Of a stretch of 64,000 nucleotides of DNA, positions 29,351-64,000 are shown in pieces. Numbering within the stretch: position 1 is the first letter of the stretch; every line of letters starts with the position of its first letter. Both the position numbers and the translations under genes were made by a program. The stretch comes from Caldilineales bacterium. Its GTDB lineage: Bacteria > Chloroflexota > Anaerolineae > J102. Location of the stretch: NCBI GenBank assembly GCA_019695115.1, contig JAIBAP010000011.1, forward strand, positions 1 through 64,000, given 5' to 3'. The notes under the pieces were generated by a model. That model was not told the origin of the DNA, made no database searches, and was given only the letters and a program-made list of their open reading frames with translations.

Positions 29351-30994
<1,644 letters not shown>

Positions 30995-52120: not shown

Positions 52121-54928
52121 TCAGCCCATGGCGGGGCAGAGTTCACAGGTTACGATCTCTGCCCCGCGGCTGGGGAGGACGACCACGCCGCCGTCCTCGA
52201 CCGTAAGCGCCTCCTGCCGCTCCTCCGCCAGGTTCAGGCGATAGGCCGCCCGGAGCGGGAAAGAAGCAGTGAGGCGCATCTCCACCGACTGGCGCTCCAG
52301 GTTGTAGACGCGCACGACTAAGCCTCCACCAGCGCTCGTTCGCCGCACGGCGCTCAGGGCCAGCGTGGGCGGGTCGAGGCGGAGGAAGCTCAGGGTGTTG
52401 GGGAGAGGGCCGCGGCGGGGCCAGGGGATGGGTTTGACCTGGGCCGGGTCGTCACGGGTGATGTTCATCTCGCGCAGTTCCAGCCCCTCGTGGGTGTCGG
52501 CGCGGGCGAGGAGGAGCGGGGCGACGTAGTTGTAGGCGGGCTGGTAGACCTCATGCCAGTCTCCGCTGTGGGGCAGGATGGCGTATTCGTAGGTGTAGGG
52601 GCCGAGGCACTGGGCGCCGGGCGTGGGCACCAGGGGCCCGGCGGCGATGCGGCGGGTGAACAGGTCATCGCGGCTGAGCCAGCCCACACTGCGCAGCAGG
52701 GTCAGGGCGATCTGCGTCCCTTCCTGCTCGCGCGTGACTTCGACCGCCGGCAGGCCGCGATTGAGGACGGCCAGGCCCCGCCCTTGTCCTGAGCGTCCCA
52801 ACCTATGGTTGGGCGTCGAAGGATCGCTCACATCGGTGAAGGCGCGCTGGTGCATCAACGAGGTCGGGTCTTCGACCCAACCGGCCGCGTCGGGCAGGTC
52901 GATGTCACGCGGCATGACGGCGAAGGCGGCGTCGACCGTGCACCGCGCCGGGTTCAGCCCGGTGGGGAAGACGACGCTGAGTTTGTGGTCGTGGGCCTGG
53001 TTGTCGATGTGGGTGCTGATGTACAGGCCGGGCCGGTCGCGATAGAGTGTGACTTCGGAGACGATGGGCAGGGCCACGAGCTTGCGGGCGCGGCGCCTGC
53101 GGTCGGGGGTGAGGCCGGCGGGGATGCGCAGGACGCGCTCGATGCGGAAGGTGGCCAGGCAGGGGCCAGATGCCACGAGACTGACAGCGGCGGGCTGGCC
53201 GGAAGTGGTGAGGGTCTGGCTATGGGTGGCGGGGCAGTATGAATACTCGTCGCCGGCGTCGTCCACATCCTGGAAGTGGCCCAGGCCGCGATAGGCCTGG
53301 CCGCTGGCTTTGTCGGTCACGTCCAGGCCGCCATCGGCGGTGATGGTGAAGGCGAGGTGGCGGTTTTCGGCGCCGTCCTCGCGCACTTGCCATTCTCCAT
53401 CGGCGGCAGGGAAACGACTGAAGCCCGCAGTGAGTGCAGCGAACCTGTCGTTACTACGAGGCATACCAGGTTGCGCCCAATAGGCGCGGTAGCCGCAGGC
53501 GGGGATGTCGCCGGGGAAGGCGACGCGCAGCCGGCGTTTGCGGTTGGGCTTGAGCGTCTCCATCCAGAAGACCTGCTCATCGCTCAACACCTGATGGGGG
53601 ACGACCTGCCCCTGGCTATCGACAAGCTGGAAATTCTCGGCGGTCGGGTCGTCGAAATCGAAGTCGATGTCGCCGACGACGGTTTCCTGCCGGTCCCAGC
53701 CCAGGGGGTTGTAGACGAGCAACGGCGTGCCGCTCTGGGCGGTGAAATCGACCTGGCGGGCGAGTTGGCGCAGGCTGTCGCGCACCACGAACTGGCCGAT
53801 CTGCTCGGCCTGGCCGAAGCGATAGAGCATCTCCTCGTGCACGGCGTCGATGCCGCTGCCGTAGATGTCGTCGTGGGGGTGGTTCTTCAGCAGCCAGCGC
53901 CAGGCCGTCCACATCACATCGTCCGTGCCTTCGGGGACGTCGGCGCCGGATAGCCAGGCCAAAGCGGCCAACGGCTCCATATAGCGTTCGAACAGGGTTT
54001 CGAGGCGATGGTTGATCTGCTTGAGGTGGATGCGCGTGGCGTACACGCCCTGCAGGATCTCGGAGTAGCGGCCCCAGCGGAATTCACCCTCGAAGACGGG
54101 CAGCTCGACGCCTGAGGCGCGCACTCGCTCCAGGTGTTCGCCCAGGGTGCCGTGATAGAAGGCGGTATCCTCGATTTCGGCGTTGGCGCGGGCGATGATC
54201 TGGGGGATGGCTGGTTCGGCCTCGGCGTGGTCGATGCCGTTCATCAGCAGCCGGGCCGGGGTGTTGGACAGCGGTTGGAGCGCGGCCAGGGCCTTGCGGA
54301 TCTGCGCCAGGGCCAGGTCTGCGTCGAATTCCATCTGCGAGATATCGCCCCAGTGGATGGGATAGCCGATGTTGGAGATGTTGTGGTAGCCGTAGGGCAT
54401 CCAGATCGTGGTCACGGTCGAGCTGTCGGGCGCGCGCCACTCGAATTCTGTGCCCAGGCGCTCGCCCTCGGCCCCCAGCCCTCGCCAGAAGAAGGCATTG
54501 TCGATGCCAAAGCCGCGCAGGATCTGCGGCAATTGCCCGACATGACCGAAGCCATCCGGCACGTAACCGATCTTCATCACGCCACCGTAGTCAAGACCCA
54601 TGCGATGCCCCAGCAGCAGGTTGCGGATCAGCGCTTCGGGGCTGACCAGGAACTCGTCGGCCAGCACGTACCACGGGCCGACGCTGATCCGCCCTGCTTT
54701 GCTCAAGGCCTGCAGCTCGCCCGCCCGCTGCGGCCTCACTTCCAGATAGTCTTCCAGCACCGCCATCTGGCCGTCGAGCATGTAGAAGCGGTAGTCGGGC
54801 CGGGTGGCCAGCAGATCGAGGAGGCGGTCGACCAGGCGCACGAGCCGGATGCGGTATTCCTGAAAGGTGACGTACCAGGCGCGATCCCAATGGGTGTGGC
54901 TGACGACGGTGGCGTGGAGGGATTTCAT
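52121..54928 (-). CDS. GH38-family alpha-mannosidase
   Basis: Zinc-dependent alpha-mannosidase of 935 residues. The N-terminal catalytic domain carries SHTHWDRAW (zinc His and Asp, residues 11-18) and VPDGFGHVGQLPQIL near 123 with the nucleophile Asp. The central and C-terminal beta domains follow, ending in PLRAAYRLNLAEERQEAL. There is no signal peptide, so it acts in the cytoplasm on imported oligosaccharides. Two in-frame repeat insertions are visible, near residues 489-500 and 698-715 (see findings). It is the last gene of the minus-strand glycan locus. Confidence 0.92.
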   Translation of the reverse strand: MKSLHATVVSHTHWDRAWYVTFQEYRIRLVRLVDRLLDLLATRPDYRFYMLDGQMAVLEDYLEVRPQRAGELQALSKAGRISVGPWYVLADEFLVSPEALIRNLLLGHRMGLDYGGVMKIGYVPDGFGHVGQLPQILRGFGIDNAFFWRGLGAEGERLGTEFEWRAPDSSTVTTIWMPYGYHNISNIGYPIHWGDISQMEFDADLALAQIRKALAALQPLSNTPARLLMNGIDHAEAEPAIPQIIARANAEIEDTAFYHGTLGEHLERVRASGVELPVFEGEFRWGRYSEILQGVYATRIHLKQINHRLETLFERYMEPLAALAWLSGADVPEGTDDVMWTAWRWLLKNHPHDDIYGSGIDAVHEEMLYRFGQAEQIGQFVVRDSLRQLARQVDFTAQSGTPLLVYNPLGWDRQETVVGDIDFDFDDPTAENFQLVDSQGQVVPHQVLSDEQVFWMETLKPNRKRRLRVAFPGDIPACGYRAYWAQPGMPRSNDRFAALTAGFSRFPAADGEWQVREDGAENRHLAFTITADGGLDVTDKASGQAYRGLGHFQDVDDAGDEYSYCPATHSQTLTTSGQPAAVSLVASGPCLATFRIERVLRIPAGLTPDRRRRARKLVALPIVSEVTLYRDRPGLYISTHIDNQAHDHKLSVVFPTGLNPARCTVDAAFAVMPRDIDLPDAAGWVEDPTSLMHQRAFTDVSDPSTPNHRLGRSGQGRGLAVLNRGLPAVEVTREQEGTQIALTLLRSVGWLSRDDLFTRRIAAGPLVPTPGAQCLGPYTYEYAILPHSGDWHEVYQPAYNYVAPLLLARADTHEGLELREMNITRDDPAQVKPIPWPRRGPLPNTLSFLRLDPPTLALSAVRRTSAGGGLVVRVYNLERQSVEMRLTASFPLRAAYRLNLAEERQEALTVEDGGVVVLPSRGAEIVTCELCPAMG
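52783..52824. repeat. Repeat-derived insertion in the mannosidase gene
   Basis: CCCAACC-TAT-GGTTGGG (52797-52813) is a short hairpin flanked by CTTGTCCTGAGCG and GTCGAAGGA, words of a common repeat family. It adds about 14 residues (SDPSTPNHRLGRSGQ) between DVSD and GRGLAVLNRG, where relatives run straight on. Confidence 0.75.
53412..53460. repeat. Second repeat-derived segment in the mannosidase gene
   Basis: AACGACTGAAG (near 53413) and GTCGTTACTACGAG (53447-53460) are separated halves of the element seen as a perfect inverted repeat at 39106-39160. Both are read in frame within the central domain. Confidence 0.6.
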
Positions 54929-55008: not shown

Positions 55009-55293
55009 CTAGACAATTGCTACCCTAAGTTTACGACCAAGTGCAAAGGCGGCTTTCTCCAGCGTCGCCAACGTGGCCGATGCGCTCTCAGGATCTAGGA
55101 GTCTATCCACGGCTGCTCGGCTCGTGTTCATGCGGCGAGCCATTTCCGCTTTCGACAACTGTTGATCCCGCATGAGTTGCTCAATCTGGAAAGCTAATAC
55201 GCGTTTGACCGCAACCGCTTCGGCTTCCGCCAGAAGGCCTTCTTCCTCGAGGAAATCGTCCAGGCTACTGCCCAAATGCTGTTCGTTCATCAT
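55009..55293 (-). CDS. higA: HigA-type antitoxin with HTH
   Basis: XRE-type helix-turn-helix antitoxin of 94 residues, SKAEMARRMNTSRAAVDRLL being the DNA-binding helices. An acidic N-terminus precedes it. It is the second gene of a toxin-first pair, typical of HigBA. Start ATG 55293 gives the family-like N-terminus; the longer frame is unconserved. Confidence 0.85.
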   Translation of the reverse strand: MMNEQHLGSSLDDFLEEEGLLAEAEAVAVKRVLAFQIEQLMRDQQLSKAEMARRMNTSRAAVDRLLDPESASATLATLEKAAFALGRKLRVAIV

Positions 55294-55300
55294 CGTGAGT

Positions 55301-55645
55301 TCATCCGCGTAAGGATTGAAATCGCTGCCTGGCCAACTGCAAATCGCTATCAGGCGTTTTCTGCGATTGCTTGATGAAGCCATGCAGCAGGACCATCGTG
55401 TCGTCATCAACAGTGAAGATGACGCGTGCGATGCGGTTGGGAAGATGCGATCGAACTTCCCACAGGCCGGCCTCGAGCTTGCGAATCAAGGGCATGCCCA
55501 AAGGCCAACCATACTGCGCCGTTTTCAGATCATCGCCAATGATCCTTCGCTCTTCTGCCGGCAGAGCCTTGAGCCAATCACGCACTGGCTCATTGCCTGC
55601 AGACGATCGATAGAAAAGCACACGCAAGCGCGCTTCATCTTCCAT
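55301..55645 (-). CDS. higB: HigB-type toxin (Gp49-like/DUF891)
   Basis: RelE-superfamily toxin of 114 residues, LRVLFYRSSAGNEPVRDWLK then GMPLIRKLEAGLWEVRSHLP, RIARVIFTVDDDTMVLLHGF and the lysine-rich FIKQSQKTPDSDLQLA. Cleaves translated mRNA in characterised members. It precedes the antitoxin gene by 7 bases and lies inside the glycan locus, splitting it. Confidence 0.88.
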   Translation of the reverse strand: MEDEARLRVLFYRSSAGNEPVRDWLKALPAEERRIIGDDLKTAQYGWPLGMPLIRKLEAGLWEVRSHLPNRIARVIFTVDDDTMVLLHGFIKQSQKTPDSDLQLARQRFQSLRG

Positions 55646-55708: not shown

Positions 55709-56776
55709 CTACGCAATCGGGTAGCGGCCGTATTCCCGGCAGGCCCGCACCATCGCCAGGACATTCTCGACCTGGCAGTAGGCGGCGATGGAGTTGCTGC
55801 TGGAGAGGATGTAGCCGCCGCCGGGCGCGACCTGGCGGATGGTGTCGCGGGTCAGGCGCGACACCTCATCGGGCGTGCCAGCGGCGAGTTTGTCCACGTC
55901 GATGTTGCCGACCAGGGTCAGGCGCCGGCCCTGCGCCGGATCAGCGAAACGGCGTTTGAGGGCGACGATGTCCACGGCGTCCGGCTCGATGGGGTGGAGG
56001 GCGTTCATGCCCAAGGAGAGCAGGTCATCCAGCACGGCCAGGAAGTTGCCGTCGGTGTGGAAAATCCAGGGGAGGGTGATGGCCTCGGCCACGCGGCGCC
56101 AGTAGGGCATGAACAGGCTGCGAAAGGTCTGAGGCGAAATCATCAGCCCGGTCCTGAAGGCGATGTCGTCGCCTGCCCAGACGAAATCGAAGCCGAGGGC
56201 GCAGATGTGCTTGACCGCCCGGCTGTACCAATCGGTGTAGATGTCGAAGAGCGTTTCCGGCACGTAGGGGTCGTCGTAGAGGGCGTAGGCGAAGTTGTCC
56301 CAGCCCATGCTCAGCACCACCGGGTCCGAGCCGAGGTTGATGAAGCAGCCGATGGCATAGCCCAGGGGCCGATAACGGGCCAGGAAGGCGCGGGCGGGTT
56401 CGTAGATGCTGGGGTCGTCCGGGTCGGGGAGATCGACCAGCGCCAGGTCGGCGCGCTGCTTGATCATGCCGTCCACGAAGAAGGTGTTGCCATCGGACAC
56501 CCGGCCCACGAAGTAGATGCGCGGCTGGATGCTCATGCAGAAGCCGTCCAGACCGAGGGCTTGGGCCAGGTCGGCGGGGTCGTATTTGTGCCCGCCGAAG
56601 TAGGCGCAGGTGACGGGCAGCGAGCCAGACACGAAGGCCGGTTCGGGGGAGGGCGGCCGGCCGAGCAGCCGCAGGCCGAAGGCTTCGGCCACGTACAGTT
56701 CCATGAACGGCACGCGGTCGGGTATGCCGCCGTTCAGGGCGGTGAGGACGCGTTCGCGGGAGGTCATTTCGGTCAT
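55709..56776 (-). CDS. Uroporphyrinogen decarboxylase-like protein (URO-D family), copy 1
   Basis: TIM-barrel URO-D-family protein of 355 residues (SRERVLTALNGGIPDRVPFM at the start, GGGYILSSSNSIAAYCQ near the end). Not a heme enzyme by context: the locus has glycosidases and a sugar permease. In methyltransferase relatives (MtaA type) the zinc site is HxCG; here the equivalent is HTDG near residue 237, Asp replacing Cys, so methyl transfer is uncertain. Start ATG 56776 was chosen because the upstream 22 codons are repeat-derived. Confidence 0.8.
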   Translation of the reverse strand: MTEMTSRERVLTALNGGIPDRVPFMELYVAEAFGLRLLGRPPSPEPAFVSGSLPVTCAYFGGHKYDPADLAQALGLDGFCMSIQPRIYFVGRVSDGNTFFVDGMIKQRADLALVDLPDPDDPSIYEPARAFLARYRPLGYAIGCFINLGSDPVVLSMGWDNFAYALYDDPYVPETLFDIYTDWYSRAVKHICALGFDFVWAGDDIAFRTGLMISPQTFRSLFMPYWRRVAEAITLPWIFHTDGNFLAVLDDLLSLGMNALHPIEPDAVDIVALKRRFADPAQGRRLTLVGNIDVDKLAAGTPDEVSRLTRDTIRQVAPGGGYILSSSNSIAAYCQVENVLAMVRACREYGRYPIA

Positions 56777-57089
56777 AGCGCAACGTTTTGGTATTACAGC
56801 CGTAGTCAACACAAAGACACGAAGATCACAAAGAAAACACAAAGTATGATCTTTATCGCCTTCTTTGTGTGATCTTTGTGCCCTTTGAGCCTTTGTGTTT
56901 TTCTCTTTCTGATGGCAAAAAAAACAATCCGTGTTCTTCCGTGTTTATCCGTGTCCAAAACCATGCCCGGCCAGCAAGTTCACGATACTTGGGACACGGA
57001 TCGAAGCCGATTCACACGGATTTTCAACACAAAGTCATCGCTCCAATCCGTGTTCTTCCGGGTTTATCCGTGTCCAAAAACATGCCCGG
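56777..57089. other. Gene-free gap with two repeat families
   Basis: I see no gene in these 313 bases between the first URO-D gene and the GH31 gene. They contain CACAAAG-type inverted repeats (56806-56901) and two 46-bp direct copies at 56926-56971 and 57045-57090, built from TCCGTGT words and ending in CATGCCCGGC; the second copy abuts the GH31 stop codon. Confidence 0.85.
56806..56901. repeat. CACAAAG-type palindromic repeat
   Basis: Repeats of AACACAAAG and CACGAAG (56806-56844) face CTTTGTGT copies (56861-56901), forming an imperfect hairpin upstream of the URO-D gene. The same element lies upstream of the third URO-D gene at 63169-63250. Confidence 0.8.
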
Positions 57090-59504
57090 CTAGGGGACGG
57101 ACAGCAGGCGAAGGGTGGTTGGCTCGGGTCGGGAGGGAAACGATAGTTGGATGACGCCGCTCGACCCGACCTGCACCGGCAGGTCGGCGCCGGCAACCCG
57201 GAAGGCCGCGCCCGGCGCCAGGTGAAAGCGGACGATCGTTCGCCGGGCAGGGCCGCCGGCCGAGGTCAGGGTCAGGCCGGAGTCGTCGTGCGTGCAGGCG
57301 ATGTCGGTGGCGCCTTCGTCTTCGTACAGGCGATAGCTGGAGTGGCCGTGCGGGTGGATGTCGAGGATGAGCGGGTCGAGCAGGCCGGCGGGGAGGCGGT
57401 TGGCGGGTGGGATCATCGGCACGATGGCGCCGCCGCGCACGAACAACGGCAGGGTGTCCAGGGCGGCGTGTATGGCGAGGGTGGCCGGGCCAGCGGTCGG
57501 AGCGCTCGCAGCGGTCGGAGCGCTCGCAGCGCTCCGACCGCTCCAGTAGTCGATCCAGCGGCCCGCCGGCAGATAGACGCTGCGCCGGCCGCTTTCGTCG
57601 TAGATCGGGGCCGCCAACAGCCAGGGGCCGAGCATGAACTGCAGGTCTTTGTCGTAGGTGTTGGGGTCGTCGGGGAAGGCCAGGGGCATGGCCCGCAGCA
57701 CGGGCAGGCCGGTGCGGGCGGCTTCGTGGGCGCAGGAGTAGAGGTAGGGGAAGAGCTGGTAGCGCAGGCGGGCGTAGCGGCGGAAGATGGCGGTGGCCTC
57801 CTCGCCGAAGAACCACGGTTCGCGCTGCGTCTCGCCGTGGCAACGAGCGTGCGAGCAGAGCAGGCCGAACTGCGCCCAGCGGATGTAGAGTTCGGGCGAG
57901 GGATGGCCGCGGTAGCCGCCGATGTCGTTGCTCCAGAAGGGCACGCCCGACAGCCCCAGGCTGAGGCCGCCGCGCAGGGTGAAAGCCAGACTGTCCCAGG
58001 TGCAGGCCGGGTCGCCCGACCAGCAGGTGGGATAGCGCTGGCTGCCGGCGTAGCCCGACCGCCCCCATACGATCCCCGCGCCCTCGACTTCCGCCGTGAC
58101 CTCGAAGGCGACCTGGTTGTAGAGCAGGGGATAGAGATTGTGCATCTCGGCCCCGGTCATGCCGTTGGCGAAGACGGCGTCGGCGGGGATGTCCTCGCCG
58201 AAATCGGTTTTGTAAACGTCGATGCCGGTCTGCAAAGCCGCCCGCATCAGCGATTTGTACCAGGCGACCGCTTCTGGATGGGTCAGGTCGATGATGGCGA
58301 CGGGCGCGTTCCACGAAGTCTCGCGGCTGGCGACCTGCGTGACATGGCCGGGGAGCGTGGACAAGGACAGGCCGTAGTCGATGACATAGACCGAGCCATC
58401 CGGTCTGCGGGCGAAGTAGCCTTTGGCCGCTCCCGCCGCGTACAGGTCGCTCTCGACCGAGACATAGGGGTGCTGCCAGACGCTGAGCTTGAGGCCCTGC
58501 CGGTGCAAATCCTCGGCGAAGCGTTCGGGTTCGGGAAAAGCCTGGCGATCCCACGCGAAATCGGCGTACTGGCGCCAGCGCATCCACCACGGATCGACAT
58601 GGATGACATCGCCAGGGATGTCATGCTCGGTCAGCCCGGCCGCCAGGCCCCGGATGGCAGCCTCATCCCGATAGACGCCGCTGCCCGAAAGCCACAGCCC
58701 GAACGACCACCTGGGCGGGACTGGCGCCCGGCCGGTGAGGGCGGTGTAGCGCTCGAGGATGGCGGCGGGGGCGGGGCCGTGGATGAGATAGAGGTCGAGA
58801 TAGGGGCCGTCGATGGCCAGGGTGTAGGTCTCGCACGACTCTGTGCCCAGGTCGTAGGCGATGCGGCGGCCGGTGTTCAGGAACAGGCCGTAGCCACGGG
58901 TGCTGATCAACAGCGGCACGTTTTTGTAGGCGCGCTCGCCGGCCGCGCCCAACGCATCCGCCGTCCACGAGACCAGCCGCTGCCCGACCTTGTCCAGCGG
59001 CGTGAACTTCTCGCCCAGGCCGAAGATATGCTCGTCCGGCCAGAGGTGGAAGGACTCGGTCATCTGCTCGACCCGGCCCTCGTCGCCCCGCCTGAACCCC
59101 AGTGGGCGGATGAACAGCCGGTCGAGGCCATCGACGTCGAAGGGGTTCTCGCGGCAGACCACCTGCCCCTCGCGGCTGCGAAAGGAGACGCACCACGGTT
59201 CGCGCCCGATCTCAAGCGCCAGGCTCGGCCCGCGCGCGCTCAGCCCTGCGGGCGTCTCCTCCACCTCAAGTCTCACCGCCGGCCCGACCTCGCCCACCAC
59301 CAGCGGCAGGGCCGGCAGTGCGCCCCCGTCCGGCGTGCAGGTGAGGCGCCAGATTTCCGGCGATTCGGCGCTGAAGATGACGTCGATCCTGTTCCCGGCC
59401 GAGGTCTCGGCGACAGCCACCACGCGATTGCCTTCGGCGCGCCAGCCAGTCAGCCGGGTGGCAAACTCGAAGCCGGGGATGGGGTTGAGGAGGGATTTGG
59501 GCAT
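57090..59504 (-). CDS. GH31 alpha-glycosidase, alpha-xylosidase-like
   Basis: Retaining GH31 enzyme of 804 residues. The nucleophile motif VYKTDFGED (near residue 432) is the xylosidase-type KTDFGE sequence of E. coli YicI, and WSGDPACTWDSL near 498 holds the acid/base Asp. No signal peptide. An in-frame palindromic insertion sits near residues 654-676, reading SAASAPTAASAPTAGPAT where the family has a short loop. It follows the second URO-D gene by six bases. The substrate is likely an alpha-xyloside, but GH31 preferences overlap. Confidence 0.92.
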   Translation of the reverse strand: MPKSLLNPIPGFEFATRLTGWRAEGNRVVAVAETSAGNRIDVIFSAESPEIWRLTCTPDGGALPALPLVVGEVGPAVRLEVEETPAGLSARGPSLALEIGREPWCVSFRSREGQVVCRENPFDVDGLDRLFIRPLGFRRGDEGRVEQMTESFHLWPDEHIFGLGEKFTPLDKVGQRLVSWTADALGAAGERAYKNVPLLISTRGYGLFLNTGRRIAYDLGTESCETYTLAIDGPYLDLYLIHGPAPAAILERYTALTGRAPVPPRWSFGLWLSGSGVYRDEAAIRGLAAGLTEHDIPGDVIHVDPWWMRWRQYADFAWDRQAFPEPERFAEDLHRQGLKLSVWQHPYVSVESDLYAAGAAKGYFARRPDGSVYVIDYGLSLSTLPGHVTQVASRETSWNAPVAIIDLTHPEAVAWYKSLMRAALQTGIDVYKTDFGEDIPADAVFANGMTGAEMHNLYPLLYNQVAFEVTAEVEGAGIVWGRSGYAGSQRYPTCWSGDPACTWDSLAFTLRGGLSLGLSGVPFWSNDIGGYRGHPSPELYIRWAQFGLLCSHARCHGETQREPWFFGEEATAIFRRYARLRYQLFPYLYSCAHEAARTGLPVLRAMPLAFPDDPNTYDKDLQFMLGPWLLAAPIYDESGRRSVYLPAGRWIDYWSGRSAASAPTAASAPTAGPATLAIHAALDTLPLFVRGGAIVPMIPPANRLPAGLLDPLILDIHPHGHSSYRLYEDEGATDIACTHDDSGLTLTSAGGPARRTIVRFHLAPGAAFRVAGADLPVQVGSSGVIQLSFPSRPEPTTLRLLSVP
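57491..57543. repeat. 18-bp tandem and inverted repeat inside the GH31 gene
   Basis: Two copies of GCGGTCGGAGCGCTCGCA (57493-57510 and 57511-57528) are followed by the reverse complement of most of the unit (57529-57542), so arms 57510-57523 and 57529-57542 form a perfect 14-bp hairpin. Read in frame as repeated Ala-Pro-Thr segments. Confidence 0.9.
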
Positions 59505-59510
59505 GAGCGT

Positions 59511-60680
59511 CTACGAGAGCAGGCCATAAACTTCGTCCAGGTCGGTCTCCGGCCAATCGTCGTCGATCATGCCGTTGGTGACATCGACATGGATGAAAAG
59601 GCCGCGGTTCGTGGGGGCCGCAGCCCGGATCTTGCGCACATAGTCGGCCATGCCGTCGAAATGGATGTCGCGGTGCAGCCCGACGCGACAGGCCAGCACG
59701 ACCTTGCCGCCGAACCGCGCGGCCACCGGCCCGAACGGCGCTTCGCTGGCGCCGAACTCCAACCCGCGCAGATTCCGCACCCGCTCCAGGCTGGGGAACT
59801 GGTGCAGCCAGTTGCCGCAGGAGTGGATGTAGACGCCGCCGAAGGCGTCGGCCAGTTGGTTGAGATACGGCACCGAGAACTCGTCGTGGTCGCGGGCCGA
59901 GATCATCACGCATTCGTCGTTGCTGACCGAGACGCCCCAGCCGTCGGGCATCCACGGCTGGAAAAGCGCCGGCGTGAAATCCTCGTCCGCCGCCGCCCGC
60001 TGCGCTCGCACGACCGCGATCGTGAAGTCGGTGACCAGTTGCAGCAGGTGGTGGACGGCGTCGGGGTGGGTGCGCAGGGCCAGCAGGAAGTTGTTGTGGC
60101 CCATGATCAGGGCGCTGCTATCGATTGGCCCCTGGATGTCGGTCATACGGATGGGGTAGGCGCCGTGCGTTTGCTGGCGGAAGAAGCGGGTGTAGGCCAG
60201 GATGCGGCCCAACTCGCCGTCCGTGATCGCCGGCATCTTCAGGTCGTAGATGGCCTCGGGGTCGTCGCCGATGGCCGGGCGCACGGCCGGGAAGTCGCGC
60301 TCCCACCACACCACCGGGCAGCCGAAGGCGGAGGGGATGCCGACGACGCCGAGGGTGGGGCAAAGCGCCGGCACGAAATCGCCCCGCAAGGCCAGTTGGC
60401 CCCGGATTTCGGCCAGCTGCGCGGCCAGGAATTTGGCCGGGTCGGTCAGACGGTCGCGCACCGTGTCGGCGCCCTCGGTCGAGAACAAGGCCGAGCGCAC
60501 GGGTTCACCCCCGCGCAGCCGGGGGCCGGTATAGCCGATGAGGAAACCCGGCCGCTCGTCGTTCTCCAACTGCCACAGCCGCTGCAAGAACGCCCGGCTG
60601 GCCTCGATCCGCTCGACCTCCGGCCTCTGCCCTCCGACCTCTGCCCTCTGATCTCTGACCTCTGCTCTCTGGCCGCTCAT
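59511..60680 (-). CDS. URO-D-family protein, copy 2
   Basis: TIM-barrel URO-D-family protein of 389 residues with IHSCGNWLHQF near residue 285, the HxCG zinc motif of corrinoid-methyltransferase relatives (MtaA/CmuA type). The ATG at 60680 overlaps the stop of the upstream ferritin-like gene (ATGA). Residues 4-23 (QRAEVRDQRAEVGGQRPEVE) are encoded by a heptanucleotide array, so the beginning of the protein is repeat-derived. The longer reading frame to 61301 is only the frame-shifted part of the upstream gene. Confidence 0.85.
   Translation of the reverse strand: MSGQRAEVRDQRAEVGGQRPEVERIEASRAFLQRLWQLENDERPGFLIGYTGPRLRGGEPVRSALFSTEGADTVRDRLTDPAKFLAAQLAEIRGQLALRGDFVPALCPTLGVVGIPSAFGCPVVWWERDFPAVRPAIGDDPEAIYDLKMPAITDGELGRILAYTRFFRQQTHGAYPIRMTDIQGPIDSSALIMGHNNFLLALRTHPDAVHHLLQLVTDFTIAVVRAQRAAADEDFTPALFQPWMPDGWGVSVSNDECVMISARDHDEFSVPYLNQLADAFGGVYIHSCGNWLHQFPSLERVRNLRGLEFGASEAPFGPVAARFGGKVVLACRVGLHRDIHFDGMADYVRKIRAAAPTNRGLFIHVDVTNGMIDDDWPETDLDEVYGLLS
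60614..60669. repeat. Heptanucleotide array (YGNYCTC)8 inside the second URO-D gene
   Basis: Eight 7-base units of the form CGACCTC, TGCCCTC, TGATCTC and similar, beginning 8 bases from the start codon and lying wholly inside the coding region. Period 7 is the same as in the arrays before other genes. Confidence 0.95.
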
Positions 60681-61915
60681 CCCGGTGTCGCTCCGTGCTC
60701 TTGCGCCATCCGCACCTGCATCTTCACCGGCGTGTGGATCAGCAACCACTGCTCGGTGCGGGCGGCGATCTCCTCCGGCGTTTCGGTGTAGCCGTAGGTT
60801 TGCAGCATCACCGGCGTCCACTTCTTGCCCCAGCGGATGTGGTAGTTCTCGTCGCTCCAGTCGTAGCTGATGGCGGCGGCGGCCACATCGTCGTGGATGT
60901 CCTCGAAATGCTCGATGTTGCGGCGCTTCTCCGGCATCCCGTTCGGCTCGATCACGGTGGTGAGCAGGGCATATTGATCGACCGCCGGCAGGGTCATCAT
61001 CACGTTGTAGATTTGCACCACCTGCCAGATGTCTTTGACCTCGAAGCCGAGTTGTTTGATCACAAGCTGGCCGAGCTGGCTGTGCCGCACCTCGTCCCAC
61101 AGATGGCGGGCGGTGTTGTATTGGAATTCCCACGGCATCTCCGGCGTCAGCCAGAGGATCGAGCCGAGCGTCTCGGCGGCCGTCATCTCGTTCAGATAGT
61201 GCCGGAAACGCCACTCGCGATGGGCGTCGGGCTGCATCTCCCGGTCGGGTTCGACATCGGTATCGGGGTCGAAGATCGGCCAGCCCGCCTCGCGCTGGCA
61301 TTCTTTCCAGGGCAAGAGCAGGTCATGGCCCGCCGGCCGCTCAGGAACAGCAACGCCCGTTTCGGCGCCATCCGTGCCCCCCGCCGCCGCAAACACCGCC
61401 GCAATGTACGCCTCCCACCCTCCCACCCTCTCACCCTCTCTTCCTCCCCCGCTCTCCGCCTGCAAACGCGCTACCATCCCCTCCGCCCACGCCACCTGCC
61501 GCTCGTAGATCTCGGTCAGCTCTCCCAGCACCTTGACCGTAGGCCGGTCGAACACGGGATAGGTGAGGGTGGGGTGGAGGCGATAGGTCTCGAGCAGCGC
61601 CTTCTTGACGACCAGATAGACGGTGGCGAGCAGTTCGAGGGTGTTGGCGGCGCAGTCCAGCTCGCGGGCCAGGTGTCGCAGGGCTTCGGGGATGCTCTTT
61701 TCGGGGTGGTGCGCCCGCATCTCGCGCAGGCGGACGCGCAGGCGCTCGCAGGCGTCGGCGTCCTCCCAGATGTGCAGCCCGATCTCGTTCTTGACCTCCC
61801 ACTCTGGCACGCCCGGCAGCCACCCGGCCAGGGTGCGCATGACGGATTGTTCGAGGAAGGTGTAGCGTTTCAGGCGTTCGACGTTTTGGGTGAGGGAGAG
61901 GTTTTTGTCGGACAT
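60677..61915 (-). CDS. Ferritin-like (diiron-type) protein of unknown function
   Basis: Predicted 412-residue helical protein. Residues about 235-340 show a ferritin-like pattern, ETLGSILWLTPEMPWEFQYN followed by WDEVRHSQLGQL, with Glu and EVRH metal-ligand positions like those in DUF455-type and ribonucleotide-reductase-like diiron proteins. An acidic loop with a repeat-encoded insert (GGGREGERVGGWEAY) lies near residue 155-170. It is coupled by ATGA overlap to the second URO-D gene. Function unknown; an oxygenase or oxidase for the sugar pathway is my inference. Confidence 0.65.
   Translation of the reverse strand: MSDKNLSLTQNVERLKRYTFLEQSVMRTLAGWLPGVPEWEVKNEIGLHIWEDADACERLRVRLREMRAHHPEKSIPEALRHLARELDCAANTLELLATVYLVVKKALLETYRLHPTLTYPVFDRPTVKVLGELTEIYERQVAWAEGMVARLQAESGGGREGERVGGWEAYIAAVFAAAGGTDGAETGVAVPERPAGHDLLLPWKECQREAGWPIFDPDTDVEPDREMQPDAHREWRFRHYLNEMTAAETLGSILWLTPEMPWEFQYNTARHLWDEVRHSQLGQLVIKQLGFEVKDIWQVVQIYNVMMTLPAVDQYALLTTVIEPNGMPEKRRNIEHFEDIHDDVAAAAISYDWSDENYHIRWGKKWTPVMLQTYGYTETPEEIAARTEQWLLIHTPVKMQVRMAQEHGATPG
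61411..61440. repeat. Octanucleotide array inside the ferritin-like gene
   Basis: CCTCCCAC, CCTCCCAC and CCTCTCAC followed by CCTCTC form a period-8 array in the coding region; it encodes the Gly/Arg-rich loop of the protein. Confidence 0.9.
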
Positions 61916-61986
61916 TTCGAAGTCCTCGTAGAAGCAAGCCAGAAGGCCGGTTCATGACCTGGCACATCTGGCTGGTTTTCGATGAA

Positions 61987-62021
61987 CAGACCCTAAAGGT
62001 CTCGGAGACCTTTAGGGTCTG
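61987..62021. repeat. Perfect hairpin supplying the stop codon of the third URO-D gene
   Basis: Arms 61987-62003 and 62005-62021 are exact complements around one base. The minus-strand TAG within CCTTTAGGG (61993-61995) ends the gene, and the last residues PKGLRDL come from the hairpin. It is the same type as the hairpin at 27368-27402. Confidence 0.9.
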
Positions 62022-63165
62022 ATTGCGCGTATTCCTCCGCCGCCTCCATCATCGCATTGATGTTCTCGATCGGCGAGCCAGGGGCGATGTTGTTGCCATC
62101 CTGGAGGATCAGCCCGCCGTGGGGGGCCAGCTTCTCCAGCACGCGGCGCGTCTCGGCCTTCACCTGGTCGGGCGTGCCATCGGCGATAACCAGCGGGCTG
62201 ACGTTGCCCAGCAAGACCACCCGCCCGCCCATCACCTGCCCGATCAAGTCCAGATCGACCTTCCAGCCAAAGCCCTGCAACTCGTTGATCTGCAGGTCGT
62301 CGGCGAAGATGCGCAGCAGATGATTGGTCTGGCCGCACATGTGCATGCTCAGCCAGCCGTCGAAGTGGAAGCGCAGCCGCTTCTCGTAGGGCAGGACGAG
62401 GTCGCGATAGACCTGGGCCGACAGCCCGGCGGCCAGGTCATCGGTCCAGGCGAAATCCCGGTGCGGGATGCCCATCTCGGCCCAGCAGAAATCCAGCCAG
62501 GCGATGATCTTGCCGGTGACGATGTCCAGCAGCTCGTGCATGAACTCCGGCCGCTCCAGCGTGGCGGCGAAAGCCTCGGTCTGATCCATGAGGTCGCCGG
62601 CGACGCCAAAGGGCCCGTGCGAGGTGTGGGTCAGGGCGGGGTTGGCGCCGGGGTAGAAGACCGGGCCGCCCTGGAAGCGGACGGGATATTTCTCGGCCAC
62701 GGCCATCATCGCCCGGCGAAAAGCCACCTGGCGGCCGTTCAATCCGTTCTCCACCACATCGATCTGCTCCAGGCGGCGCAGGTCGGCGCCGGTCTTCACC
62801 CAGCCGGCCTTGACCCAGGGGATGTCGTCGTCGGGGAAGAAGACCTCGCAGCCCAGGGCCGAGGCCTCGGTCGTGTTCTGGAAATCCGTCCAGCCGCCCA
62901 CCCAGGCCCCGGTCGTCGCATACTGGTCGGTCTTGATGTGCTCGAACAGCCACTTCTGGCCCATGATCTGGGCGTACAGCATCGTCTCCGGGTCGGAGTA
63001 GTAATCGCGGAAGCGGACGCCGATCTGGGGCAGCAGGAAGCGGTAGTTGATCGCCGGCCACACCGGCACGCGGTCGGTCGGTTCGAAACGCTTGGCCTTG
63101 GCCACGCGCTCCTTGCGCGCCGCAATCTCCTCGATGGGGACCTGGATTTCGATGACTTCGGGCAT
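61993..63165 (-). CDS. URO-D-family protein, copy 3
   Basis: TIM-barrel URO-D-family protein of 390 residues with LSMHMCGQTNHLLRIF near residue 274, a HxCG zinc site like that of copy 2. DRVPVWPAINYRFLLPQI and PHGGLILQDGNNIAP are the other family segments. The upstream 28 codons (from 63249) are encoded by a CACAAAG repeat, so I take ATG 63165 as start. It is followed by the ferritin-like gene. Role proposed as corrinoid- or methyl-group-related, not shown. Confidence 0.85.
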   Translation of the reverse strand: MPEVIEIQVPIEEIAARKERVAKAKRFEPTDRVPVWPAINYRFLLPQIGVRFRDYYSDPETMLYAQIMGQKWLFEHIKTDQYATTGAWVGGWTDFQNTTEASALGCEVFFPDDDIPWVKAGWVKTGADLRRLEQIDVVENGLNGRQVAFRRAMMAVAEKYPVRFQGGPVFYPGANPALTHTSHGPFGVAGDLMDQTEAFAATLERPEFMHELLDIVTGKIIAWLDFCWAEMGIPHRDFAWTDDLAAGLSAQVYRDLVLPYEKRLRFHFDGWLSMHMCGQTNHLLRIFADDLQINELQGFGWKVDLDLIGQVMGGRVVLLGNVSPLVIADGTPDQVKAETRRVLEKLAPHGGLILQDGNNIAPGSPIENINAMMEAAEEYAQSDPKGLRDL

Positions 63166-63168
63166 ATC

Positions 63169-63250
63169 GTCAACACAAAGACACAAAGGACGCGAAGAAA
63201 ACACAAAGGCTTTGTGTGATCTTTGTGATCTTCGCGCCTTTGTGTTCAAC
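63169..63250. repeat. CACAAAG-type palindromic repeat upstream of the third URO-D gene
   Basis: AACACAAAG, ACACAAAG and GCGAAG words (63170-63209) face their complements (63210-63250), including TCTTCGCGCCTTTGTGTT. It lies between the permease stop and the third URO-D start codon and matches the element at 56806-56901. Confidence 0.85.
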
Positions 63251-63281
63251 GTAGTTTGGGAGCTGAGCTTGTGTCACGGCG

Positions 63282-64000
63282 TTATTTGACGGCCCCGCGG
63301 GTCAGGCCGGCGATGATCAGCCGTTGGAACAGCAAGACAAGCAAGAGCACAGGGATGATCATCGTCACCGAGAGGGCGCTCATCAGATCCCACGGCCGGC
63401 CGGCGCCCATGCTGGGGTCCACGGCCAGCTCGACCAGCCCCACGCTCAGGGTCTTGGTGGTGCGATTGGTGGCAAAGACCAGGGGATACAGCAACTCGTT
63501 CCAGGCGATGATGAAGTTGATGATCAGCATCGTGGCCAGGGCCGGCCGGATCACCGGGATGACGACGTGTCGCAGCACCTGGAACAAATTGGCGCCGTCG
63601 ATCACCGCTGCCTCCTCGATCTCGGCCGGGATCTGTTGGATGAATGGCACCATGATCCAAACGGTGAAGGGCACGATCAGGCTGGACATGAGCATGATCA
63701 TCGCCCCGCGGTCATTGACCAGATCGAGCCACTTGAGCATCTCGAACAGGGGTACGACGGTGCCGATGGCGGGCACGGCGATGGAGACGATGAAGATCAT
63801 GAAGACGATGTTGCTGCCGGGGAACTTGATCCGGGCCAAGGCGTAGGAGGCCAGAAACGAGAGCGCCACCGAAACGAAGCTGGAGCCGAGGGCGAAGATC
63901 AGCGAGTTGGTCAGATAGCGATAAAAGGGGATGGCCCCGACCATGTTGATGTAGTTCTCGAACGTGATCTGCTGCGGCAGATAACGGGGCGGGATCGAGA
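63282..64000 (-). CDS. ABC sugar transporter permease (MalG/CUT1 type), partial
   Basis: The reading frame runs off the right edge at 64000, so the N-terminus is missing. The visible part has several helices and the permease EAA motif EEAAVIDGANLFQVLRHVVI, and begins IPPRYLPQQITFENYINMVG, the typical periplasmic start of the CUT1 family. It brings a carbohydrate into the cell, probably the substrate of the GH31, GH38 and URO-D-like proteins. The ATG inside the window (63944) is not the real start. Confidence 0.9.
   Translation of the reverse strand, partial: SIPPRYLPQQITFENYINMVGAIPFYRYLTNSLIFALGSSFVSVALSFLASYALARIKFPGSNIVFMIFIVSIAVPAIGTVVPLFEMLKWLDLVNDRGAMIMLMSSLIVPFTVWIMVPFIQQIPAEIEEAAVIDGANLFQVLRHVVIPVIRPALATMLIINFIIAWNELLYPLVFATNRTTKTLSVGLVELAVDPSMGAGRPWDLMSALSVTMIIPVLLLVLLFQRLIIAGLTRGAVK

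Follow-up and report, generated by a model that had tools for sequence, protein, structure and literature searches.

The grouping, on a single strand, of sugar-import and glycosidase genes with three genes of the uroporphyrinogen decarboxylase (URO-D) superfamily and a gene for a two-domain ferritin-like protein, here termed FERR, raises the question of what these proteins do together. The window, that is the whole stretch of DNA analysed, is 64,000 bases long and comprises bases 1-64000 of contig C11 (108.5 kb) of the 5.99 Mb genome G000. Profile matches and gene calls agreed with the gene order, the single strand and the families given in an earlier note on this DNA, and the order of transcription is solute-binding protein (SBP), permease 1, permease 2, URO-D A, FERR, URO-D B, GH31, URO-D C, a HigBA-like pair and GH38, as follows:

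L021 4179-5105 and 5196-6530: permease 1 and solute-binding protein, upstream of permease 2 and just outside the window (gene calls in L021)
63282..64000, minus strand: ABC sugar permease 2 (MalG/UgpE type), Pfam BPD_transp_1 E 1e-15; the gene extends beyond the window end
61993..63165, minus strand: URO-D A (copy 3 of the earlier note), HMCG motif, PF01208 E 1e-37
60677..61915, minus strand: FERR, two-domain ferritin-like protein, diiron ligand set in the C-terminal domain
59511..60680, minus strand: URO-D B (copy 2), HSCG motif, PF01208 E 1e-15
57090..59504, minus strand: GH31 glycosidase, Glyco_hydro_31 E 3e-91
55709..56776, minus strand: URO-D C (copy 1), HTDG motif, PF01208 E 2e-21
55009..55645, minus strand: HigBA-like toxin-antitoxin pair, an insertion separating URO-D C from GH38
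52121..54928, minus strand: GH38 alpha-mannosidase-type enzyme, Glyco_hydro_38N E 1.5e-37

GH38 thus lies below position 55709, where the earlier note had placed the start of the cluster, and the gene list of that note had overlooked the toxin-antitoxin pair, which consists of a Gp49/RelE-type gene (55301-55645, PF05973 E 1e-23) and an HTH gene (55009-55410, PF13744 E 6e-7). This pair was not noted in sister loci and probably stands outside the pathway. The reported overlap of the ferritin-like gene with URO-D copy 2 was found as a shared ATGA of 4 bases, URO-D B most likely starting at the ATG at 60680, which overlaps the FERR stop. Since the intergenic gaps are -4 bases between FERR and URO-D B and 6 bases between URO-D B and GH31, these three genes are probably co-transcribed; the gap between GH31 and URO-D C is 313 bases. 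Gene calling in the operon gave no cytochrome P450. Right behind the ATGA overlap and ahead of the conserved region, the N-terminus of URO-D B (window 60590-60680) consists of short near-repeats (QRAEVRDQRAEVGGQRPEVE), and these repeats are absent from its orthologues.

A chance grouping of these genes was excluded by synteny in relatives. A phylum-level survey had found FERR relatives in 22 of 400 genomes, at first with no URO-D neighbours, and close orthologues appeared only in a class-level search, which added G434, and in a search of genome contigs with a FERR alignment, which gave 17 close loci from Anaerolineae and Aggregatilineales assemblies together with partial ones (more than 500 relatives overall). 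In the resulting 19 close loci FERR is 58-74% identical, and it is accompanied by GH38 in 16, permeases in 16, a matching solute-binding protein in 13, a GntR-sugar regulator in 13, URO-D A in 13, a second ferritin-like gene (FERR2) in six, URO-D B in four, GH31 in four and a ferredoxin in three, all of these counts being lower bounds because several contigs stop within the locus. The earlier note would have counted absence of the neighbourhood from other genomes against its own reading; at least 18 other loci carry it. The closest locus, that of G434, reads SBP-permease-permease-URO-D A-FERR-GH38 on a single strand, and gene order differs between loci, which argues for a functional rather than purely inherited linkage. 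Judged from gene content, FERR and URO-D A belong to a conserved unit together with the ABC importer, the alpha-mannosidase-type GH38 and GH31.

All three URO-D copies exceed the PF01208 gathering cut-off of 23.9 bits (A 130, B 58 and C 77 bits), and the name of this Pfam family is the one argument for regarding them as ordinary or relict uroporphyrinogen decarboxylases. Against this, the HemE equivalog model TIGR01464 (cut-off 302.95 bits) gave 32 bits for URO-D A and no match for B and C, and G434 encodes a separate true hemE in addition to its URO-D A. N-terminal RQAGR arginines are a defining feature of HemE; in URO-D A they are replaced by Ile and Phe (alignment to 4exq). Haem synthesis was therefore ruled out as the role of the copies, none of which is HemE, a possibility that the earlier note had raised against its own reading, and decarboxylation of uroporphyrinogen is an extremely improbable explanation of the locus. 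A hemE-level URO-D was also absent from G000 as a whole (best score 86 bits against the cut-off of 303), though haem-copper oxidases are encoded.

The best-scoring curated models for all three copies are of the MtaA/CmuA type, with scores far under their cut-offs: TIGR01463 (cut-off 235.4) gave 92 bits for URO-D A, 29 for B and 61 for C, and PRK06252 gave 97 bits for A and 73 for C. The zinc ligands of MtaA are a His, a Cys and a later Cys. The HMCG and HSCG motifs attributed to copies 3 and 2 were both found, HxC being present in URO-D A and B and HxD in C, and in alignment with MtaA (4ay7) the HMCG of URO-D A lies over HICG. The zinc site that these motifs had been taken to represent is however incomplete, since the later Cys motif GCGIAP reads GNNIAP in URO-D A and the third-ligand position is Asn or Ser in 13 of 13 URO-D A orthologues. 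The URO-D-superfamily methyltransferase CdmB functions without zinc (PMC13222342), so that methyl transfer by URO-D A is compatible with loss of the third ligand. Orthologues of URO-D B were identified by alignment in four loci (L092, L095, L099 and L101).

Methyl transfer of this kind calls attention to corrinoid partners. No gene for a corrinoid protein, its activator RACo or MtaB was found in the window, and no MtaB in G000, which has seven corrinoid-domain (PF02607) matches and two RACo genes. The co-occurrence with a corrinoid protein suggested as a check in the earlier note was observed in sister loci: among the 19, a corrinoid protein is present in five (L090, L091, L092, L095 and L099), where it stands beside a GntR-type regulator adjoining GH38 or FERR, RACo in three and MtaB in two. 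The run in G454 comprises GH38, GntR, a corrinoid protein, MtaB (PF12176 E 9e-158; NF040651 404 bits against a cut-off of 720), RACo, a homocysteine S-methyltransferase (PF02574) and DUF1638, followed by a URO-D on the opposite strand. The MtaB and betaine-homocysteine methyltransferase-like genes behind GH38 in this genome would suit a scheme in which the methyl group handled is an aglycone, GH38 and GH31 splitting methyl glycosides and the released methanol passing through MtaB or URO-D and the corrinoid protein to homocysteine or folate, with FERR acting elsewhere in the pathway. We consider this scheme quite unlikely: MtaB occurs in just two of the 17 carrier genomes, each time at the FERR/GH38 locus and with no other copy in those genomes, G000 lacks it, and FERR is left unexplained.

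The window locus is one site of a lineage expansion of URO-D genes, of which G000 has about 30. Against 30 such genes in 6 Mb, three within 8.3 kb are not a random occurrence (P about 1e-5), and URO-D genes are clustered at other sites of this genome too (contigs C16, C43 and C59). Most G000 copies carry HxDG and some HxCG; since HCCG in L198, L093, L089 and L103 and HTDG in a G000 relative occur within one URO-D group, the two motifs appear interchangeable among close relatives, one example of the swap at this supposed metal site being HTDG at L024 10601-11641 against HCCG at L198 8743-9789. The G000 paralogues often adjoin RbsABC- or MalFG-type sugar transporters, an FGGY kinase, a class II aldolase, L-fucose isomerases and SDRs. 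The expansion looks genome-wide and sugar-linked. About 30 paralogues, mostly HxDG and many beside sugar kinases, aldolases and isomerases, could instead be TIM-barrel sugar enzymes (lyases, epimerases or decarboxylases) with an HxC/HxD metal site rather than methyltransferases, which would also agree with the missing third zinc Cys and with a genome holding only seven PF02607 corrinoid matches. What makes this unlikely is the direct contact of URO-D and corrinoid genes. On contig C68 of G000 (L193 119-8062) an operon reads SBP-permease-permease-corrinoid protein-URO-D (HTDG)-L-fucose isomerase, the corrinoid gene lying immediately upstream of the HTDG copy, and constitutes a candidate corrinoid-linked deoxysugar pathway. 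The more distant locus L162 carries FERR-URO-D-galactokinase-corrinoid protein together with a URO-D-corrinoid fusion, and CdmB provides a superfamily methyltransferase that dispenses with zinc. RACo is also associated with URO-D number: among 61 relatives, it is present in 37 of 37 with at least four URO-D genes (at least about 28 in the richest genomes) and absent from 12 of the 24 with fewer (Fisher 1.6e-6; 1.4e-4 in genomes at least 90% complete and 7e-4 in large, complete genomes), P values that overstate independence because the genomes are related, both counts following phylogeny and genome size. By inspection of the sequence, contig C9 of G000 (L166) carries a pterin-binding methyltransferase-like gene, a corrinoid protein and an MttB-like gene consecutively.

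We then consider FERR. Its AlphaFold2 model has a pLDDT of 95, and its sequence gave no match to solved structures. The N-terminal domain resembles aldehyde-deformylating oxygenase (ADO) and R2lox (Z 15-17 over about 175 residues) and is without a comparable ligand set. As the whole-protein fold search was weighted to this domain, the C-terminal domain was given a model and a fold search of its own; it resembles ADO, MiaE, VlmB and methane monooxygenase alpha with Z 13-14, borderline for helical bundles, its best match (Z 13.9, 147 aligned residues, rmsd 2.8) being near the limit for such folds, and Foldseek returned no match for this domain at E 0.001. Because these fold scores are borderline, the case for a diiron protein rests more on the ligand set: E243, E275xxH278, E323 and E356xxH359 are invariant in 46 of 46 homologues that are 21-70% identical (mean column identity 34%). 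FERR scores 31.1 bits against DUF455 (PF04305), under the cut-off of 34.3, and FERR2 scores 35.2; a search among plasmids gave one weak DUF455 match only.

A COX1 match is present in each of the 17 carrier genomes and exceeds the cut-off in 16, so that O2 is probably available to these bacteria. A COX1-type haem-copper oxidase gene is also found in the window itself, at 29351-30994. Ferritin-like diiron proteins frequently handle O2 or peroxide, and in O2-respiring carriers FERR could be a protective rubrerythrin- or oxidase-like shield for an oxygen-sensitive corrinoid or URO-D system, having no contact with sugar. In Paenibacillus, Opitutaceae and Armatimonadota, however, homologues of FERR are found in sugar loci from whose examined flanks URO-D and corrinoid genes are absent; the common partner of FERR is thus carbohydrate catabolism, and a purely protective role seems improbable. 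In two further loci (L126 and L149) genes for a zinc alcohol dehydrogenase (ADH), an esterase and a galactokinase come after FERR. A 2Fe-2S ferredoxin gene lies after FERR2 in L088, L096 and L103; it is FERR2, not FERR, that precedes it.

The glycosidases indicate the type of glycan. GH38, whose catalytic N-terminal domain matches PF01074 (E 1.5e-37), scores 465 bits against the MngB mannosylglycerate hydrolase model (PRK09819), under the equivalog cut-off of 1138, and its family implies an alpha-mannose substrate. GH31 (catalytic domain PF01055, E 3e-91) scores 567 bits against the YicI alpha-xylosidase model NF007940, narrowly under the cut-off of 606, and is by this measure close to the YicI group. 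Algae, plants and bacteria commonly carry methyl ethers on their sugars. The N-glycans of Chlorella terminate in 3-O-methyl and 3,6-di-O-methyl mannose, which has been proposed to protect them against trimming by the mannosidases of competitors, and 6-O-methyl mannose occurs in Chlamydomonas and Porphyridium (PMC6344472). Methylated microalgal N-glycans are accordingly a reasonable candidate substrate, a guess based on enzyme families.

In our best reading these genes form a glycan-catabolic operon through which aerobic Anaerolineae would break down a methyl-etherified, mannose-rich glycan by corrinoid methyl transfer and perhaps by O2-dependent demethylation, a combination to which we assign a tentative probability of about 0.4. 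The ABC importer would take up an oligosaccharide with methyl ethers on its mannose, perhaps xylose or glucose, residues, those on mannose being expected to block exo-mannosidases. The URO-D-superfamily methyltransferases, with a corrinoid protein and RACo, would remove the methyl groups or handle their carbon, the corrinoid protein and RACo acting in trans in G000 whereas they adjoin the operon in sister genomes, and in two relatives MtaB may act as a methyltransferase instead of or alongside these. FERR, supplied by ferredoxin, would act as an O2-dependent diiron oxygenase and most likely convert the methoxy sugar to free sugar and formaldehyde, and GH38 and GH31 would complete hydrolysis after demethylation. 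From the sequences we infer methyl transfer by URO-D, O2-dependent demethylation by FERR, a methylated mannan or N-glycan as the substrate and, in G000, the use of the corrinoid protein in trans.

Several lines of evidence support this reading: the synteny in 19 loci, the corrinoid protein, RACo and MtaB adjoining GH38 in sister loci, the C68 operon in the window genome, the URO-D number tracking RACo, the FERR ligand set taken with COX1 in the carriers and the ferredoxin after FERR2, and the FERR-ADH-esterase-galactokinase loci, which resemble the setting of the P450 demethylase for 6-O-methylgalactose. The methylated mannoses at the ends of microalgal N-glycans also agree with it. Other observations count against it. 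The window holds no corrinoid, RACo or MtaB gene; the third zinc Cys is absent in URO-D A, URO-D C has HTDG and the MtaA/CmuA cut-off is not reached; FERR and URO-D A are separable, L098 having FERR and GH38 with flanks free of URO-D A and L082 having URO-D A (58%) beside GH31 and permeases without FERR; the ferredoxin follows FERR2 rather than FERR; and corrinoid Co(I) chemistry fits awkwardly with an oxygenase within one operon. The ADH is weak evidence for formaldehyde, because the ADHs of porphyran systems neither oxidise nor detoxify it (PMC10033563). The one-carbon handling of modified sugars that the earlier note had put forward thus gains from the sister-locus genes beside GH38, the C68 operon and the RACo association, whereas the methylated sugar and the diiron reaction are only what we infer and the window is without a corrinoid gene.

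With the MtaA, CmuA, CdmBCA and MtoB/MtvB O-demethylase systems, which provide a precedent for cleavage of methyl ethers or methyl halides, the locus shares the URO-D fold and, in some of its sister loci, a nearby corrinoid protein and RACo; unlike MtaA/CmuA-type systems, it is linked with ABC sugar import and with glycosidases, has no corrinoid gene in the window, and its URO-D proteins score far under the cut-off and have lost the third zinc ligand. Porphyran loci that demethylate 6-O-methyl-D-galactose contain a P450, ferredoxin, reductase, ADH, esterase and glycosidases (PMC10033563), and likewise combine a glycan locus with an O2-dependent oxidase (predicted in the case of FERR), FERR-family loci carrying, besides glycosidases, either a ferredoxin or an ADH with an esterase; here, in contrast, a diiron ferritin-like protein replaces the P450, the setting is that of mannose and GH38, and demethylation is predicted from the genes. 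FERR shares with DUF455 a weak profile match across its metal-binding domain, FERR2 being narrowly above the cut-off, and differs in falling below it, in its additional N-terminal ferritin-like domain and in its sugar-locus context. With ADO, MiaE, R2lox and toluene 4-monooxygenase it has the E/ExxH/E/ExxH ligand set and, as far as the borderline fold scores indicate, the fold in common, and unlike them it combines two bundles in tandem within a single chain, only the second having a metal site.

The literature search, whose coverage excluded most subscription journals and preprints, gave no description of URO-D proteins in glycan loci or of corrinoid demethylation of sugars, and the sole well-described bacterial route found for removing a sugar methyl ether was the P450 for one sugar. 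The cluster may let uncultured Chloroflexota use glycans whose sugars carry protective methyl groups. If the URO-D role is correct, very many misnamed uroporphyrinogen decarboxylase genes would gain a function and corrinoid methyl transfer would reach carbohydrates, beyond aromatics, amines and halides; if the FERR role is correct, a new family of diiron oxygenases would result. The broadest form of this proposal, that many URO-D-labelled genes, of which some Chloroflexota genomes have about 30, encode corrinoid-dependent sugar O-demethylases and that FERR founds a multi-phylum family of diiron sugar O-demethylases, is doubtful and would be the less expected outcome. In an Opitutaceae assembly (L125 9926-15461), a FERR homologue adjoins a cytochrome P450 and a PhyH-type dioxygenase.
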